This document shows positions 463 through 10,543 of a stretch of DNA of 20,415 nt, one piece after another; within the stretch, counting starts at the first letter, position 1; every line of letters starts with the position of its first letter. The translations under genes were made by a program, and so were the position numbers. This DNA comes from a virus: positions 1 to 20,415 of the IMG/VR virus record IMGVR_UViG_3300048120_000006. One strand, given 5' to 3'. The notes beneath the pieces were generated by a model that did no database searches, was not told where the DNA came from, and saw only the letters and a list, made by a program, of their open reading frames with translations.

Positions 463-573
463 ATGATGAACTTTATAAATAATTTAAGATTTAAAATAGA
501 ATGTCTTTGCATTGATCATCCTTTGCTAATCACTTTCGTAATCGGATTTATATTAGGTGCAGCTATATTTTAA
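463..573 (+). CDS. Single-pass membrane peptide (36 aa), coupled to terminase
   Basis: The frame begins one base after the stop of the previous gene and its TAA overlaps the ATG of the large terminase as TAATG, an arrangement expected for translational coupling. The N-terminal half is mixed and contains two cysteines (residues 14 and 16). Residues 21-36 are almost all hydrophobic (LLITFVIGFILGAAIF) and include two glycines, which fits one transmembrane helix with the N-terminus probably inside. In T7-like phages the holin and spanin genes lie close to the terminase genes, so a lysis role is possible. A single helix with no charged tail is a weak holin, however, and the role is inference from position. 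It is under the length usually kept by gene callers and could be missed. Confidence 0.6.
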   Translation: MMNFINNLRFKIECLCIDHPLLITFVIGFILGAAIF

Positions 574-1847
574 TGAAAATCCAAATACCGTACACGCCAA
601 GAAAGCACCAGGCGTTTATACATAAAGAATTAGATCAGTACAGATATGCTGTACTTTGCTGTCATAGAAGATTTGGCAAGACCGTCATGGTTCTTAACCA
701 TTTAATTCGCAGCGCTTTACAAAATAAAAACCATAATCCACGACTGGCTTACATTGCTCCTACTTACAAACAAGCAAAAAGCATCGCTTGGGATTACCTA
801 AAATATTATACAAAAAATATTCCTGGTACTAAATGGAATGAAAGTGAATTGCGTTGCGATTTAATTAATGGTTCAAGAATTACTTTACTGTCTAGTGAGA
901 ATTTCGATAGCATAAGAGGTATCTATATGGATATGGTCGCAATCGATGAAACTGCGCAGATCTCTCAAGGTTTAATAGATGAAGTAATAACTCCAGCTCT
1001 CAGCGACAGAAAAGGAAAAATGTTTCTGATTGGAACACCAAAAGGAATGAACAATATATTTTATGATTATTATAACAAAGCTCAAGCAGACGATAATTGG
1101 TTTCTTTACAAAGCTAAAGCGTCTAGTACAAAAATTGTTGATCAAGAAGAATTAGATGCAGCTCTATCCGTTATGGGTAAAGCTAAGTATGACCAGGAGT
1201 TTGAATGCTCTTTTATTGGTAATATACAAGGCTCAATCTATGGCGATGTAGTTCAAGAAATAGACGATAAAGGTCAAATTGGATCTGTTCCATACGATCC
1301 AGCTTATCCAGTATCAACTGCAATAGATCTCGGATTTAACGATAGTACATCTATAATATTCTTTCAAAAGGTTAATCACTCTATCCATTTGATAGACTAT
1401 TACGAAAACAACAACCAGGCGCTGCCGCATTACGTTCAAGTTTTAAAAGAAAAACCGTATGTGTATGAAACTCATTATGCACCACACGATTTGGACCAGG
1501 TTGAGTTCTCTACTGGTAAAACAAGAAGAGAAGTTTTTTATCAGCTTGGAATAAAATTTAGGACTGCACCTCGACTACTTTTAGAAGATGGTATTCATGC
1601 AGTAAAAATGATTTTACCTAGATGTAGGATCGATAGTGATAATTGCTCAAAGCTTCTTATTGCTCTTAGACACTATCATAGAAAATATAGTGATAAGGAT
1701 CGAACTTATAAATCAAAACCAGTTCATGATTTCAGCTCACATCCAATGGATGCTTTACGATGTTTAGCGACTGGAATGGAAGAAACAAAAATAATCAACA
1801 ACAAATCTTTACAGCAAAAAGCTGAAAGCAATTACGAGGTAATATAA
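573..1847 (+). CDS. terL: Terminase large subunit (packaging ATPase and nuclease)
   Basis: This is the motor that drives phage DNA into the procapsid through the portal and cuts the concatemer. The ATPase domain shows a Walker A variant at residues 31-37 (HRRFGKT), a Walker B at 118-126 with D125 and E126, and a coupling motif GTPKG at 154-158. The C-terminal RNase H-like nuclease shows AIDLG with D252, HYAPHDLD with D306, and SHPMDALR with D393, the expected acidic residues for two-metal cleavage. At 424 residues it is compact but complete. The ATG overlaps the stop of the membrane peptide gene. In T7 this gene is at the far right end of the genome; here it precedes the portal, as in many other tailed phages. 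No small subunit is recognisable beside it. The family call is firm. Confidence 0.96.
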   Translation: MKIQIPYTPRKHQAFIHKELDQYRYAVLCCHRRFGKTVMVLNHLIRSALQNKNHNPRLAYIAPTYKQAKSIAWDYLKYYTKNIPGTKWNESELRCDLINGSRITLLSSENFDSIRGIYMDMVAIDETAQISQGLIDEVITPALSDRKGKMFLIGTPKGMNNIFYDYYNKAQADDNWFLYKAKASSTKIVDQEELDAALSVMGKAKYDQEFECSFIGNIQGSIYGDVVQEIDDKGQIGSVPYDPAYPVSTAIDLGFNDSTSIIFFQKVNHSIHLIDYYENNNQALPHYVQVLKEKPYVYETHYAPHDLDQVEFSTGKTRREVFYQLGIKFRTAPRLLLEDGIHAVKMILPRCRIDSDNCSKLLIALRHYHRKYSDKDRTYKSKPVHDFSSHPMDALRCLATGMEETKIINNKSLQQKAESNYEVI

Positions 1848-1950: not shown

Positions 1951-2178
1951 ATGGGTTCAATATTTAAAGCACCAAAGATGCCAGATCCAGCTCCAATTGT
2001 CATGCCGAAAACGGAAGATGTACCTGAAGCAGATGATCCAGCAGTTATAGCAGCAGAAGAAGAAGCTCAAAGAAAAAGAGAGCGAAACAGAAAAGGTAGA
2101 AGATCTACTATCTTAACTGGTACTGGCTTAAACGAAATTGAAGATGCAAACATAGATCAAAAAAGTTTACTAGGTTAA
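1951..2178 (+). CDS. Small phage protein with GRRSTILT...KSLLG C-terminal tag, copy 1 (75 aa)
   Basis: The N-terminus is proline-rich (MGSIFKAPKMPDPAPIVMPK), the middle acidic with an alanine and glutamate helix at about 25-40, and the C-terminus is a basic run followed by the tag KGRRSTILTGTGLN at 48-61 and KSLLG at 71-75. Small proteins with this ending occur singly near the head genes of many podoviruses, from memory of the family; the function is not established. AGAGG just before the ATG is a good ribosome site and overlaps the previous stop. The two following genes end in the same tag. The final leucine and glycine codons supply an AGG eight bases before the next ATG, so the conserved end may serve both protein and translation. 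Confidence 0.85.
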   Translation: MGSIFKAPKMPDPAPIVMPKTEDVPEADDPAVIAAEEEAQRKRERNRKGRRSTILTGTGLNEIEDANIDQKSLLG

Positions 2179-2955
2179 TTTCATGGGTGGTGTTGCAAGA
2201 ATTATAAAAAAAAATCCTAAAATTTTTAAAAAGGTAGAGCCAAAACTTAAAACTCCAGAAGAAGGAAAAAAGATGTCAAAAGCTTTGGATGAAAAACTTT
2301 CAGAAAATGCCGAGAAAGGTAATGAAGCTGCTGCTGAATTATTAAGAAAAAGAAAAGGTAGAAGATCGACAATTATGACTTCAGCTTCTGGTCTAAACGA
2401 AGAAGAATTAATTAAACAAAAAACTTTATTAGGATAATTATTATGGGTGGACCTTCAGGCGGTAATAATGGTGGCGGTGGAAATAATAATAAAACTAAAT
2501 TTGGTTATACGAAACCTAAAAACAAAGTTGTAGAATTTATTAAAGGTGGCGGAGTTGTAGGCGCTGTTGTTAGAGGTATTTCAAAAGGTATAGCAAAATC
2601 TAAAGCTAAAGCTAAAGACAGAAAAATTAATGACAGTTATTTAGGTAGTCCAGATTATCAAGGAGATGTTTCAAGAAAACCACCTAGAGATCTAAGAACA
2701 GGAAGAGATAACAATAACAATAATAATAATAATATAGTTACTCAAAAATCTATTGAACAACCAAAAGTAAAATCTCAAATGAATAATACTGATGTTAAGT
2801 CAGATATGATTACAGCTGAAGCACCAGCTATAACCGAGATGACTGCTGATGAATTAGCACTAAAGAACAGAAGAAAAGGTAGAAAAAAAACAATTTTAAC
2901 TTCCGTAACTGGAGTTGATGACTACCCAACACTAAGCAAAAAAACCTTACTAGGA
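2092..2955 (+). repeat. Three-fold repeat of a 27-28 codon C-terminal tag
   Basis: The tag occurs at 2092-2175, 2354-2434 and 2875-2955, each ending directly at a stop codon. The shared pattern is KGR(R/K)(S/K)TI(L/M)T, then three or four residues, G(L/V)(N/D), a variable acidic stretch, and K(S/T)LLG. DNA of copies 1 and 2 is alike over AAAGGTAGAAGATC. The gene junctions are also alike: an LLG-encoding end, a TAA, a gap of 4 to 6 bases, and ATGGG or ATGGC. This points to duplication of a gene end, or to a tag under common selection. Confidence 0.8.
2183..2437 (+). CDS. Small phage protein with GRRSTIMT...KTLLG C-terminal tag, copy 2 (84 aa)
   Basis: The first half is lysine-rich (IIKKNPKIFKKVEPKLK at 7-23). 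Residues 28-55 look like a single charged helix. The end repeats the tag of the gene before: KGRRSTIMTSASGLN at 58-72 and KTLLG at 80-84. The rest of the protein does not resemble copy 1, so only the last 27 or so residues are shared. It begins MGG like copy 3. The ATG is 4 bases after the preceding stop. Its own end, TTA GGA TAA, provides AGGA eight bases before the next ATG. Function is unknown; a virion or assembly role is suggested by the site between the terminase and portal genes. Confidence 0.85.
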   Translation: MGGVARIIKKNPKIFKKVEPKLKTPEEGKKMSKALDEKLSENAEKGNEAAAELLRKRKGRRSTIMTSASGLNEEELIKQKTLLG

Positions 2956-2958
2956 TAA
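2443..2958 (+). CDS. Low-complexity phage protein with GRKKTILT...KTLLG C-terminal tag, copy 3 (171 aa)
   Basis: This is the longest of the three tag-bearing proteins. Residues 1-16 are glycine and asparagine rich. A glycine and valine stretch followed by lysine and alanine repeats lies at about 30-60, and could be an amphipathic or membrane-touching segment. A run of eight asparagines lies at about 89-97. The C-terminus carries KGRKKTILTSVTG at 145-157 and KKTLLG at 166-171, the same tag as the two preceding genes with some drift. The low-complexity interior suggests a flexible linker rather than an enzyme. Its final codons again place AGGA nine bases before the next start. Function is unknown. 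Confidence 0.85.
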   Translation: MGGPSGGNNGGGGNNNKTKFGYTKPKNKVVEFIKGGGVVGAVVRGISKGIAKSKAKAKDRKINDSYLGSPDYQGDVSRKPPRDLRTGRDNNNNNNNNIVTQKSIEQPKVKSQMNNTDVKSDMITAEAPAITEMTADELALKNRRKGRKKTILTSVTGVDDYPTLSKKTLLG

Positions 2959-2964
2959 ATCATT

Positions 2965-3114
2965 ATGGCAAGACGTGGACTATACGCAAATATACATGCG
3001 AAAAGAAAAAGAATTAAAAAAGGCAGCAAAGAAAAAATGCGAAAGCGTGGTCAAAAAGGCAGACCAACAGCTAAGCAATTTAGAAGAGCTGCTAAGACAG
3101 CTAAGAAGAGATAA
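2965..3114 (+). CDS. Very basic short protein (49 aa), MARRGLYANIHAKRKRI type
   Basis: The frame starts six bases after the stop of the third tag-bearing gene and its TAA overlaps the portal ATG as TAATG. The product begins MARRGLYANIHAKRKRIKKG and continues with KMRKRGQKGRPTAKQFRRA and a basic end. Short proteins opening with GLYANIHAK and carrying a KMRK-G-KG-PTA block are, from memory, common just upstream of portal genes in marine and other podoviruses. No function is known to me. The charge suggests contact with DNA or with an acidic partner. The coupling to the portal gene suggests it is needed at the time the connector is made. Confidence 0.82.
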   Translation: MARRGLYANIHAKRKRIKKGSKEKMRKRGQKGRPTAKQFRRAAKTAKKR

Positions 3115-4733
3115 TGCAATCGCAAGAACTTAGAAAACTAGCTTCTGAGCTAAAGAATAATCTATCAAGATTGATGGAGAAAAGATCAACTTGGGAAAGT
3201 CATTGGCAAGAAATTGCAGATCTTATGCTACCAAGAAAAGCAGAGATTACTAAAGAGAGAGCTAGAGGAGATAAAAGATCTACTCAAATATTCGATGCTA
3301 CTGGTATTCATTCACTTGAATTACTTGCAGCTTCACTACATGGAATGCTTACATCATCTGCGAATAGATGGTTTTCTTTAAGATATAAAGAAGCAGTATT
3401 AAATGAGAATGATGAAGCTAGAGAATGGCTAGAAGATAGTATTGATAAAATGTATTTAGCTTTTGCTAGATCTAATTTTCAACAAGAGATCTTTGAAAAC
3501 TATCATGACTTAATTGCATTTGGAACTTCTTGCTTGATGGTTGAAGAAGATGAAGATGACATCATTCGGTTTTCAGCTAGACACATAAAAGAAATTTATA
3601 TTGAAGAAAATAAAAAAGGTTTAATTGATAATGTTTATAGAAAATTTAAACTTACTGTCGATCAAGCTATTCAAAAATTTGGTGCAGAAAATTTATCTAA
3701 AGAAATAAATAATACTTATAAATCTAATCCTTATGATGAAGTAGAGATTTGTCATATTGTTAGACCAAGATCTATTTATGATGGATCTAAACAAGATAAA
3801 AAGAATATGAAGTTTCAGAGTATTTACTTTGAACATGGAACTGATCATGTAATTTCAGTAGGTGGATTTAATGAAAATCCTTATGTTGTTTCAAGATACT
3901 TAAAATCATCTACAGAGATTTATGGAAGATCTCCATCGATGAATGCGCTGCCAGATGTAAAGGTACTTAACAAAATGGTAGAACACGGATTGAAAGCATC
4001 AGCTAAGATGATCGATCCACCTCTATTAGTACCTGACGACAGTATGTTAGCTCCAGTTAGAATGACACCTGGAAGTTTGAATTACTATAGATCAGGATCA
4101 AGAGATCGAATTGAGCCATTAAATATAGGTCAGAATACTACGGTTACATTAAATGCAGAGAATGCAAGAAGAGAAGCTATAGCTAGAATGTTTCATGTAG
4201 ATCAGTTGCAAATTCAATCTAATAGAACAATGACAGCTACAGAAGTTCTACAAAGAAACGAAGAGAAGATGAGAATACTTGGTCCAGTAATGGGAAGAAT
4301 ACAAAGTGAATTACTTGAGCCAATGATTAATAGAGTATTTTCTATAATGTTAAGAAACCGATTATTTAGAGAAGCTCCACCTATTCTTGCTAATCAAGAA
4401 ATTGATATTGAATATGTATCTCCAATGGCTCTAGCTCAAAAAGGACAAGAGCTGCAAAATGTTATGAGAGGTTTAGAATTATTTGGTTCTCTTTCTCAAA
4501 CGATGCCAGTTATGGATTACATCGATGAAAACGGTTTAGTTAAACAATTAGTTCAAACACTAGGCTTACCAGCAAGAATGATCAAAAGTGATAAGGAAGT
4601 TCAAGGAATTAGAATGGAACGACAAGAAGCTCAACAACAACAAATGCAGATGCAGCAACAAATGGCTGAAAGCGAAATGGCTAAGAATGCTGCACCGTTA
4701 GCTAAAGAAGTTCTAAATGGATCAACAGAATAA
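3114..4733 (+). CDS. Portal (head-to-tail connector) protein
   Basis: The portal forms a twelve-fold ring at one capsid vertex, nucleates assembly, and is the channel for DNA packaging and exit; it also binds the tail adaptor. The protein fits the T7 gp8-type connector family. Near the N-terminus it has a helix followed by R-x-x-WExxWxEIAxLMLPR (around 23-41), and a block GIHSLELLAASLHGMLTSS at about 64-82. The central region has EIYGRSP near 267-273 followed by LPDVKVLNKM, and MTATEV at 373-378 in the long-helix region, both typical of the family. The last 50 residues are glutamine and methionine rich. At 539 residues the length matches T7 gp8. The start overlaps the preceding stop, and the next gene starts 17 bases before this one ends. 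Confidence 0.95.
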   Translation: MQSQELRKLASELKNNLSRLMEKRSTWESHWQEIADLMLPRKAEITKERARGDKRSTQIFDATGIHSLELLAASLHGMLTSSANRWFSLRYKEAVLNENDEAREWLEDSIDKMYLAFARSNFQQEIFENYHDLIAFGTSCLMVEEDEDDIIRFSARHIKEIYIEENKKGLIDNVYRKFKLTVDQAIQKFGAENLSKEINNTYKSNPYDEVEICHIVRPRSIYDGSKQDKKNMKFQSIYFEHGTDHVISVGGFNENPYVVSRYLKSSTEIYGRSPSMNALPDVKVLNKMVEHGLKASAKMIDPPLLVPDDSMLAPVRMTPGSLNYYRSGSRDRIEPLNIGQNTTVTLNAENARREAIARMFHVDQLQIQSNRTMTATEVLQRNEEKMRILGPVMGRIQSELLEPMINRVFSIMLRNRLFREAPPILANQEIDIEYVSPMALAQKGQELQNVMRGLELFGSLSQTMPVMDYIDENGLVKQLVQTLGLPARMIKSDKEVQGIRMERQEAQQQQMQMQQQMAESEMAKNAAPLAKEVLNGSTE

Positions 4734-7439: not shown

Positions 7440-7724
7440 ATGGCAAGAAAATCAAAGCCTATTTCAAGGAATAAAAGAAATTACAGACCTACTAAGAAAG
7501 GTGCTGGAATGACAAAAGCTGGAGTTAAAGCTTATAGAAAAGCTAATCCAGGATCAAAATTAAAAACCGCAGTAACTGGTAAAGTTAAAAAAGGATCGGC
7601 TGCTGCAAAAAGAAGAAAATCATATTGCGCAAGATCTTTAGGACAACTGAAGAGATCTTCTGCAAAAACTAAAAATAATCCTAATTCAAGAATTAGACAA
7701 TCAAGACGAAGATGGAAATGTTAA
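7440..7724 (+). CDS. Basic small protein, DUF6321-like (94 aa)
   Basis: The protein is highly basic. The core reads GMTKAGVKAYRKANPGSKLK near 23-42, TAVTGKVKKGSAAAKRRKSY at 43-62, CARSLGQLKR at 63-72, and a closing NPNSRIRQSRRRWKC. This run of blocks, with an SYCAR or SFCAR centre and an RRWKC end, is what I remember as the domain of unknown function DUF6321, widespread in marine phages. Two cysteines, one central and one terminal, are kept. The charge suggests nucleic acid binding, and the place between capsid and tail genes suggests a virion or packaging role; both are inference. A GC-rich hairpin ends 12 bases before the ATG. Confidence 0.85.
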   Translation: MARKSKPISRNKRNYRPTKKGAGMTKAGVKAYRKANPGSKLKTAVTGKVKKGSAAAKRRKSYCARSLGQLKRSSAKTKNNPNSRIRQSRRRWKC

Positions 7725-7725
7725 A

Positions 7726-7944
7726 GTGAAGTATCTTTTAATTTTATATGTATGCAGCTATGCAGCAGAAACTCCTAAATGTAATGACGAAAGAATTACT
7801 GGAGGATTTGATGAATGGTCCACTTGTATAAATCAAGGATATAAACAATCACATTTTTTATTAAACGAACTTTATCAAGAAGATTTCGAAGATGAAAAAT
7901 TAGCGATCAGATTTTCATGTGAGGAACAAGGAGAAAAAACGTAA
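7726..7944 (+). CDS. Small protein with short hydrophobic N-terminus and paired cysteines (72 aa)
   Basis: No in-frame ATG fits, so the start is the GTG at 7726, one base after the previous stop. The product opens MKYLLILYVCSYAAE, a short hydrophobic stretch that could be a weak signal or membrane anchor. It then has cysteines at about 10, 19, 33 and 65, with FDEWSTCINQGYKQSH near 28-43. Small phage proteins of this plan, a hydrophobic start followed by W-x-x-C-x-x-x-GY, are familiar to me but have no known role. Four cysteines would suit a disulphide-bonded protein outside the cytoplasm. Its end carries AAGGAG at 7928-7933 for the tail tube gene, and the stop overlaps that start as TAATG. 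Confidence 0.72.
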   Translation: MKYLLILYVCSYAAETPKCNDERITGGFDEWSTCINQGYKQSHFLLNELYQEDFEDEKLAIRFSCEEQGEKT

Positions 7945-8522
7945 TGGCAAGTGTAGTAGATATGTGTAATTCAGCTCTTAACTTATTAGGAGCATCGACA
8001 ATTTCAGCATTAACTGATGACAGTAAGAATGCAAGATTATGCAATCAAAGATATGATAGCGTTAGGAACAGAGTATTTAGATCTCATGCTTGGAACTGTT
8101 TACATAAAAGAGTTCAATTAGCTCAAAACAGTACAGCTCCAGTTATAGAATATTCTAATGCTTATGCTCTTCCGTCAGATTGTTTAAGAGTATTAAAAGT
8201 TCATAATGGAACTACAGACAGTATTGCTTCTGCTATTGATTACAAATTAGAAGGTAGAAATATTGTAACTGATGAAGGAACTATTTATTTAATCTATGTT
8301 GCTTTAGATGCAGATCCAAATAATTACGATAGTTATTTACAAGAAAGTATCTCTCATCAACTTGCTGCTGATCTTTGTTATGCAATTACAAATAATGCAA
8401 CACTAGCAAATAATTATATGGCTAGAGCCGATGAAAGATTAAGAGAAGCAAGATTTATTGATGCAACCGAAAACAGTTTAGGAACTATTGAGAGTAACGA
8501 ATTTACTGACGCAAGGTTATAA
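7944..8522 (+). CDS. Tail tubular protein A (gp11-like adaptor)
   Basis: This adaptor ring joins the portal to the tail nozzle and carries the fibre attachment. The N-terminus MASVVDMCNSALNLLGASTI followed by DSKNARLCNQRYDSVRNRVF near 26-45 and RSHAWNCLHKR is the standard T7 gp11-type pattern: helix, LLG, then N-A-x-x-C-N-x-x-Y-x-x-x-R. A central YALPSDCLRVLKV segment (near 74-86) and a C-terminal helix with LAADLCYAIT also match the family. At 192 residues the length equals T7 gp11. It follows a good ribosome site and is linked by TAATG overlaps to both neighbours. The tail nozzle gene follows, as expected. Confidence 0.95.
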   Translation: MASVVDMCNSALNLLGASTISALTDDSKNARLCNQRYDSVRNRVFRSHAWNCLHKRVQLAQNSTAPVIEYSNAYALPSDCLRVLKVHNGTTDSIASAIDYKLEGRNIVTDEGTIYLIYVALDADPNNYDSYLQESISHQLAADLCYAITNNATLANNYMARADERLREARFIDATENSLGTIESNEFTDARL

Positions 8523-10543
8523 TGGCTCGAACAACTTTAGCATTAACATCTTTTGTTTCAGGAGAGTTTGGTAATAAGCTTACTGGTCGAACAGATTTTG
8601 ATAAATATCAATCTGCTGCAAAAACTATGGAGAACTTTTTAGTTCATCCTCAAGGAGCTGCTACAAGAAGAGTAGGTACTCAATTTATTGCTTCAGTTAA
8701 AACTGCTTCTGCTAAAACTAGATTAATTCCTTTTGAGTTCTCAACTACTCAAACTTATATTTTAGAATTTGGAAATAATTATATTAGATTTTTTAAAGAT
8801 AAAGGTCAGATCTTATCTGGTGGATCTGCTTATGAAATATCAACTCCGTATTTAACTGCAGAGTTATTCGATATTAAATTCGCTCAATCTGCTGACGTTA
8901 TGTATATCTGTCATCCTAATCATGAGGTAATGAAGCTCAGTAGAACTGGTCATACTTCATGGACATTAGCTCAAGTTGATTTTACTGATGGACCATATCT
9001 TGCAACAAATTCAACAACGACAACACTAACACCAGCTCAATCTGCAACTGGATCTGGAGTAAATATAACAGCTTCTGCAGTAACTGGAATAAATGGTGGA
9101 TCTGGATTTTTAGCTACCGATGTTGGAAGAATAATAAGTTTCAATTCTGGTAAAGCAAAAATTACTTCAAGGACCAGTACAACAGTTGTCGTTTGTACAA
9201 TTACAACTGCTTTTGCTAATACCAATGCTACAGCTGCTTTTAGTTTGGGTGCATTTTCAGATACGACTGGTCATCCTAGTTGCATAAGTTTTTATGAACA
9301 AAGATTAGTTTTTGCTGGAACTATATCTGAACCACAAACAGTATTTTTTTCTAAAGCTGGAGATTATGAAAACATGACTTCAGGAACTAACGCTGATGAT
9401 GCAATGGTTTATACTATCGCTGCTAATCAAGTTAATGTTATTAGATATTTAAAAGCGCAAAGAACTTTAGTTATAGGAACTACTGCTGCTGAATATACAG
9501 TATCAGCTGATGGAACAGATGCTTCTATAACACCGACTAACATTACTATTAAAAGACAAAGCTCTTATGGATCTGCAAATGTTGATGCAGTTACAGCTGG
9601 AAATGCAATATTGTTTTTACAAAAAGCAAAGAGAAAAATTAGAGAACTAGCCTATAACTTTGATAGTGATAGTTATGTTGCTCCTGATTTAACAATTTTA
9701 AATGATGCAGTAACCGATAGTGGTATTGTTCAAATGGAATGGCAACAAGAACCAGATAATATTTTATGGTGTGTTAGAGAAGATGGACAACTAGCAGCGC
9801 TTACATATCAAAGATCTGAAAACGTAGTTAGTTGGCATAGACATATTTTAGGCGGAGCTTTTGGATCAGGTAATTCTGTTGTTGAAAGTATAGCTAGTAT
9901 TTCTGGAGATCTAAACGAAGATGAACTTTGGTGTATTGTTAAAAGAACAGTTAATGGTGCAACTGTAAGATATGTAGAATGCTTTTCTGATTTTGATTTT
10001 GATGAAACCGCTTCTACAGATTTTAAATTTTTAGATAGTCATTTAAGTTATTCTGGATCTTCAACAACTACACTAAGTGGGTTAAGTCATCTACAAGGTC
10101 AAACAGTATCTATCCTGGCTGATGGATCTGTTCATTCAAATAAAGTTGTTAATGGATCTGGACAAATTACTTTAGATAGATCTGTTACTAAAGCGTGTGT
10201 AGGTTTAGCTTATGATAGTGTTTTACAAACTATGAGAATTGAAGGTGGATCTTTAGAAGGTACATCTCAAGGTAAAATAAAAAGAATTTCAAAAGTAGTT
10301 TTAAGATTATTTGAAACTGTTGGTGTTAAAGTTGGTCCAAGTTTATCTAACTTAGAAACAATACCTTTTAGAACTACATCTAGTAATTTATCTGCACCAG
10401 TAGATACTCTTATAGAAGGCGATAAAGAAATAGAATTTGACGATGATTATAATAGTGACGGACATATATTTATTAAACAAGATCAACCGCTTCCAGCTAG
10501 TATTCTTGCAATATATCCAACGCTAGTAACAAACGATGGCTAA
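8522..10543 (+). CDS. Tail tubular protein B (gp12-like nozzle)
   Basis: This is the nozzle protein at the tip of the short tail. The N-terminus has FVSGEFGNKLTGRTDFDKY near 11-29, VHPQGAATRRVGTQFI at 41-56 and RLIPFEFS at 67-74, followed by YILEFGNNYIRFF near 79-91. All are standard for T7 gp12 relatives. Later blocks include HPSCISFYEQRLVFAGTISE near 251-270 and RQSSYGSANV and FLQKAKRKIREL near 344-371. A C-terminal beta region follows. At 673 residues it is somewhat shorter than T7 gp12. The ATG overlaps the stop of tail tube A, and the next gene starts 8 bases before the end. The call is firm. Confidence 0.94.
   Translation: MARTTLALTSFVSGEFGNKLTGRTDFDKYQSAAKTMENFLVHPQGAATRRVGTQFIASVKTASAKTRLIPFEFSTTQTYILEFGNNYIRFFKDKGQILSGGSAYEISTPYLTAELFDIKFAQSADVMYICHPNHEVMKLSRTGHTSWTLAQVDFTDGPYLATNSTTTTLTPAQSATGSGVNITASAVTGINGGSGFLATDVGRIISFNSGKAKITSRTSTTVVVCTITTAFANTNATAAFSLGAFSDTTGHPSCISFYEQRLVFAGTISEPQTVFFSKAGDYENMTSGTNADDAMVYTIAANQVNVIRYLKAQRTLVIGTTAAEYTVSADGTDASITPTNITIKRQSSYGSANVDAVTAGNAILFLQKAKRKIRELAYNFDSDSYVAPDLTILNDAVTDSGIVQMEWQQEPDNILWCVREDGQLAALTYQRSENVVSWHRHILGGAFGSGNSVVESIASISGDLNEDELWCIVKRTVNGATVRYVECFSDFDFDETASTDFKFLDSHLSYSGSSTTTLSGLSHLQGQTVSILADGSVHSNKVVNGSGQITLDRSVTKACVGLAYDSVLQTMRIEGGSLEGTSQGKIKRISKVVLRLFETVGVKVGPSLSNLETIPFRTTSSNLSAPVDTLIEGDKEIEFDDDYNSDGHIFIKQDQPLPASILAIYPTLVTNDG

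Follow-up and report, generated by a model that had tools for sequence, protein, structure and literature searches.

One C-terminal tag on three unlike neighbouring proteins of a marine SAR11-type phage: a candidate docking motif at the portal-tail gateway

The placement of small ejected proteins at the portal and tail channel is structurally known for phage T7. Two such proteins, gp6.7 and gp7.3, are encoded in T7 in the slot ahead of the portal gene, which is also the place of the genes described here. Residues 2-15 of gp6.7 were shown to ring the portal barrel, and six C-termini of gp7.3 (residues 84-98) were located at the adaptor-nozzle junction (PMC11784390). Both proteins are ejected at infection and are then degraded by cellular proteases (PMC11784390). 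gp7.3 has further been described as needed for assembly and absent from the mature virion (PMC11784390). For the group formed by epsilon15, BPP-1 and the pelagiphages, which includes abundant ocean phages, no comparable structural account was found.

The window, by which the whole analysed stretch of 20,415 nucleotides is meant, is a contig (20.4 kb) from a marine SAR11-type phage with a short tail and is of the HTVC010P/HTVC028P type. Between its portal and that of Pelagibacter phage HTVC028P there is 71% identity, and the genes for the terminase, the portal (PF12236), the capsid and the tail tube follow one another in the usual order. Adaptor and nozzle are encoded at 7944-8522 and 8522-10543. 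The interval between the gene for the terminase large subunit (terL) and the portal gene holds three intact ORFs, A, B and C. The features of this slot are the following.

573..1847, + strand: terminase large subunit (terL), left anchor of the slot
1951..2178, + strand: gene A, 75 aa, with a conserved N-terminal MGSIFKAPKMPxP, a predicted helix at residues 30-56 and the C-terminal tag; PHROG 831
2092..2175, + strand: tag of A, 28 aa, KGRRSTILTGTGLNEIEDANIDQKSLLG
2183..2437, + strand: gene B, 84 aa, with a KTPEEGKK... body and an A-like tag; a patchy accessory copy
2354..2434, + strand: tag of B, 27 aa, KGRRSTIMTSASGLNEEELIKQKTLLG
2443..2958, + strand: gene C, 171 aa, with a variable Gly/Asn/Lys-rich body, a QPKVKSQMNN motif ahead of the tag and the terminal tag
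2875..2955, + strand: tag of C, 27 aa, KGRKKTILTSVTGVDDYPTLSKKTLLG
3114..4733, + strand: portal, head-tail connector (PF12236), right anchor of the slot

The tagged set is itself flanked in the slot by two very basic tiny ORFs, one of 32 aa (1850-1949) and one of 49 aa (2965-3114; PHROG 16028). HTVC028P (gp48) and Baldr likewise have small basic genes ahead of the portal gene.

An earlier note on this DNA, made from the sequence alone, had described three neighbours of 75, 84 and 171 residues with a common ending of 27-28 residues at the exact C-terminus of unlike bodies. That observation is confirmed: the ORFs are intact, their bodies differ, and each of the three tags finishes at the last residue of its protein. 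The common ending was also recovered with an independent profile, built from A-type tags of other genomes and excluding the window sequences in order to avoid circularity. This profile matched B with E=1.2e-12 (41 bits) and C with E=2.7e-8 (27 bits). Among the 241 ORFs of the window the next best match after the tagged genes reached only E=0.65, and the best score in 50 shuffles of all window ORFs was 6.7 bits. With gene A as the query within the contig, the other two tagged genes were retrieved with E=1e-5 and 8e-4. Orthologues of gene A were present in 80/80 loci of one locus set.

The tag family is already catalogued, though under entries that carry no function: PHROG 831 and the related PHROGs 16847, 4566 and 29361. 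The C-terminal regions of all three window proteins match PHROG 831 (A, E 2.9e-13; B, 4.3e-9; C, 1.2e-6), and only A among them matches it over its full length. Epsilon15 gp3 and HTVC010P gp3/gp4 belong to the same set of matches, and epsilon15 gp3 additionally matches PHROGs 29361 and 4566. PHROG 16847 is matched by 37 of 43 BPP-1-type tagged proteins, and the part of Bbp22 that is matched includes the tag. The tagged protein of Stenotrophomonas phage BUCT708 matches PHROG 4566 and, weakly, PHROG 831. The four entries are split by body; neither the single tag that spans them nor the sets of two or three different tagged bodies per genome are recorded there. No account of Bbp22, PHROG 831 or other tagged proteins was found in the open-access literature. 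The device had been called undescribed, which is true of its function and not of the family. With the tag as a guide, many short hypothetical proteins could receive the annotation that they lack today.

Whole records searched with the tag profile were positive in 22 of 28 cases, with one to three copies per genome. Three copies were found in the genome of L084. Two were found in HTVC010P, HTVC028P, HTVC034P, HTVC035P, Baldr, zth2-2 and eight other IMG/VR contigs. A single copy is carried by epsilon15 (gp3), BPP-1 (Bbp22), Limnohabitans phage DC33, Caulobacter phage SR18, Pseudomonas phage Flu_PA14_4, Acinetobacter phage 4316 and Xanthomonas phage CP2. The profile had no match in T7, K11, VP5, ZP6, K227 or BUCT708. 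Since VP5, ZP6 and K227 have the same portal family and no tag was seen in them, the tag is not universally required.

A second count covered 80 loci with both terL and portal, taken from IMG/VR and the named phages with identical strains kept in; A is favoured in it because the IMG/VR loci were retrieved by A, B or C queries. Two tagged ORFs were found in 61 loci, one in 11 and three in 8. Seven further matches, scored as lying outside, concern first ORFs that, read from stop to stop, share sequence with the end of terL; adding them by hand gives two in 66, one in 5 and three in 9. In relatives, two tagged genes, of the A and C types, are almost always present. Of 89 loci obtained in a separate survey with BPP-1-type tags, 86 had one tagged ORF and three had two. 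The expectation that other podoviruses carry one such protein at this place therefore holds for the epsilon15 and BPP-1 types and fails for the phage's own relatives, which usually have two. Multi-copy sets were recovered not only in HTVC010P, 028P, 034P, 035P, Baldr and zth2-2 but also in many marine contigs, and the tag is more general than the earlier note had supposed. The tag may also repeat inside one protein, as a single ORF in L090 (1123-1788) contains two tag-like motifs, of which the second, close to the end of the ORF, is the weaker.

In the named phages, all matches of the tag profile fall between terL and portal. The PHROG 831 search adds the sole exception, BUCT708. Its tagged gene (9059-9340, equal to L254 3360-3641) is situated in the ejection module, downstream of the nozzle gene and shortly upstream of a gp14-type internal virion protein and a transglycosylase, and is flanked by two genes of about 130-145 codons.

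Gene type is strongly preserved among the tags. In pelagiphage-like sequences, a tag and its closest counterpart from another genome were of the same gene type in 125/130 cases. The tags of A and C have an identity of 0.44 within one genome and 0.42 across genomes, and being hardly closer within than across, they give no sign of recent gene-end copying. A and C represent two distinct lineages whose conservation extends over dozens of contigs. The mean identity of the tag exceeds that of the body in every type (A, 0.62 vs 0.37; B, 0.76 vs 0.67; C, 0.52 vs 0.19). Rough Nei-Gojobori dN/dS values were 0.27/0.31/0.47 for the tags vs 0.53/0.51/0.69 for the bodies, to be taken as indications only because synonymous sites are near saturation. 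These comparisons support a constraint on the tags at the protein level and a slower evolution than that of the bodies.

Gene B is a patchy third copy, present in at least four further lineages. L017 lacks it in spite of a portal that is 98% identical, yet it is present in L034 and L045, whose portals are only 72-73% identical, and in L012 it is placed after C rather than ahead of C. The tag of B has an identity of 0.54-0.59 to the tag of A and 0.43 to that of C, so that B, or its end, probably derives from A. This greater closeness to A is also what a duplicated gene end would leave if it were diverging or decaying without a function of its own, an option raised by the earlier note. However, the type conservation of the A and C tags and the lower, if rough, dN/dS of tags than of bodies argue against such an origin. 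B itself has kept both body and tag across relatives of only 72% portal identity, and no frameshifts or truncations were seen in A, B or C. A decaying duplicate is therefore very improbable, and the claim does not stand for A and C.

Constraint could in principle act on the RNA instead. The last codons of the tag and the stop (TTA GGA TAA) often form a Shine-Dalgarno site for the downstream gene. In the window the LLG-stop reads TTAGGATAA or similar, a possible ribosome-binding site at 2170-2185, 2427-2446 and 2949-2968, and a Shine-Dalgarno-type site lies upstream of the genes that follow B and C. It could thus be argued that the ending LLG(G)-stop, TTAGGA(GGT)TAA, is conserved because it provides the next gene with its Shine-Dalgarno site, as many next genes are preceded by such a site. 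But LL[GASN] is retained in 14/16 tags without a close downstream start (within 20 nt) and in 93/98 tags with a near start but without a Shine-Dalgarno-type site, and the GRRSTIL part of the tag further upstream would be left unexplained. Retention regardless of a nearby start or site indicates that the ending is kept as protein. A Shine-Dalgarno role as the main cause of the LLG ending was rejected on these counts, and the RNA explanation as a whole can be given hardly any weight.

The bodies were approached through structure prediction and database searches. An AlphaFold model of C from the single sequence had a pLDDT of 53 and was uninformative beyond disorder. A model of A with 21 sequences predicted a helix at residues 30-56 and gave a pLDDT of 55-60 for the tag. 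The three proteins are small and, judging from these models of A and C, probably disordered for the most part. No chain in the PDB matched gene A, epsilon15 gp3, Bbp22 or the tag profile, and no Pfam or NCBIfam model fitted A, B or C. Small, basic and disordered bodies would suit proteins that are injected or that act as early factors of host takeover, the tag being a signal directed at the host, for example one that leads to proteolysis, to insertion into a membrane or to a host target; the degradation of ejected T7 gp6.7 and gp7.3 by cellular proteases (PMC11784390) points the same way. Yet one tag is common to phages of hosts as different as Pelagibacter, Salmonella, Bordetella and Acinetobacter, and the tagged genes lie within the structural module, which makes a host-directed signal improbable.

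The likeness to the T7 proteins was examined at the level of profiles. gp7.3 (PF11653, PHROG 1320) shares with the tagged proteins the slot upstream of the portal gene, the small size, a basic N-terminus, a variable body and a constant basic C-terminal motif. The tag ends in KTLLG, whereas T7 gp7.3 ends in GGGINI, and homology is not established. PF11653 had no match outside T7 and K11. Beyond T7-like phages, PHROG 1320 was matched in two places only, both of them tagged genes of pelagiphages (E values of 8.6e-5, over a span that crosses stops, and 1.6e-3). A profile of the gp7.3 C-terminal motif alone (GKKSLSVxRSSGGGIN) showed no enrichment for tagged proteins. hhalign of the tags against gp7.3 gave a probability of 0.8%, not beyond permutations, and that against gp6.7 was not significant; only the lack of significance is relied on, because artefacts with oddly high scores occurred among the permutation nulls.

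gp6.7 (PF17570, PHROG 1391) likewise has the same slot and size as the tagged proteins. By eye, its N-terminal MCFSPKxKxPKx resembles the MGSIFKAPKMP of A, and K11 gp6.7 has a tag-like Gly-Arg-Lys-Ser motif and K-S-A-L-G-G end; the profile affinity is sub-threshold only. PHROG 1391 was matched among the tagged proteins only by HTVC034P gp57 (E 1.9e-4), which is one of the tagged genes matched by PHROG 1320, and two cellular control genomes also match. When local profiles were run against 17,590 ORFs, tagged proteins ranked top both for gp6.7 (11/20 vs 0/20 reversed) and for gp7.3 (15/20 vs 7/20 reversed). The T7 affinity is partly a matter of composition, because for gp7.3 the reversed sequences also rank partly on top. 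Judged from sequence, the tags and the small T7 proteins appear to have the same slot and a similar make-up, short of an established common descent. Within T7-like phages, K11 gp7.3 (L112 1396-1656) was also matched by the gp6.7 family profile (E=5.8e-5), and gp6.7 and gp7.3 have a G-x-K-S-L-x-V stretch in common; a distant paralogy, or a common motif, may connect the two.

A sub-threshold resemblance to a third T7 protein was observed in one branch. The Pfam model T7_gp14 (PF24072) was matched by 8/43 BPP-1-type tagged proteins at E<=0.01, and the internal virion protein PHROGs 418 and 805 were matched by 4/43 and 2/43. The singly scanned gp14 matches are collinear from about residue 1 and cover the first 75-95 profile positions. 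The N-terminal part of the gp14 family (PF24072, PHROG 418) thus aligns with the BPP-1-type bodies at a sub-threshold level: all matches of tagged proteins lie below the Pfam cut-off of 27 bits, which the real gp14 of epsilon15 exceeds. When the bodies were shuffled in two blocks that preserved the hydrophobic-then-polar layout, 0/8 matched. The window's own A, B and C bodies had no gp14 match, and the gp14 proteins of epsilon15 and BUCT708 are themselves without the tag.

Because of the slot position, the gp14-like BPP-1-type bodies and the relocation in BUCT708, the tag is proposed to be a docking motif on small virion-assembly or ejection proteins at the portal/tail gateway, a reading to which we assign a probability of about 0.5. 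A, B and C would be small, largely disordered proteins of this gateway, in the slot of T7 gp6.7 and gp7.3, whose products are ejected at infection. The same positional argument has been put forward in a preprint on phage Peru-2 for its unidentified small ORFs (PMC13320782). The tag would be a short linear peptide that docks at a site repeated on the portal, adaptor, nozzle or ejection core, and the differing bodies would serve close by as spacers, plugs, adapters or membrane-active pieces. Unlike bodies with one tag could share 6 or 12 equivalent positions arranged as a ring.

Alternatively, the tagged proteins could be assembly or packaging factors of the infected cell only, with a tag that binds terminase or portal during packaging or portal nucleation and proteins that leave before the virion is completed. 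The position of the tagged genes directly downstream of terL would agree with this, as would gp7.3, which T7 needs in assembly and lacks in its mature virion (PMC11784390). It is nevertheless rather unlikely, since the tagged gene of BUCT708 lies away from terL and adjoins ejection genes, and gp14-like bodies indicate the ejection apparatus.

The docking or loading signal suggested by the earlier note is thus partly supported by the multi-copy recurrence, the constraint and a circumstantial portal and ejection context, while we infer the presence of the tagged proteins in the virion, their docking site or partner, their loading and their ejection. No virion proteomics or structure for any tagged protein was found in the open-access literature or the PDB, pelagiphages, BPP-1 and epsilon15 included. 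The gateway docking motif would imply that one tag on different bodies marks a single binding site, which could be sought in cryo-EM maps. More tentatively, the tag may be a modular, phage-wide virion-sorting signal that mounts unlike small proteins on one portal-tail site, with a copy number that depends on the lineage: one in the BPP-1 and epsilon15 types, two in SAR11 phages and three here.

Elsewhere in the window, at 7440-7724, there is a free-standing basic ORF of 94 aa (...KSYCARSLGQ...NSRIRQSRRRWKC). Its matches are confined to the last 70-90 residues, at the very C-terminus, of several phage families with much larger proteins (PHROGs 10346, 727, 3477 and 30733). The ORF is read as another mobile C-terminal module.
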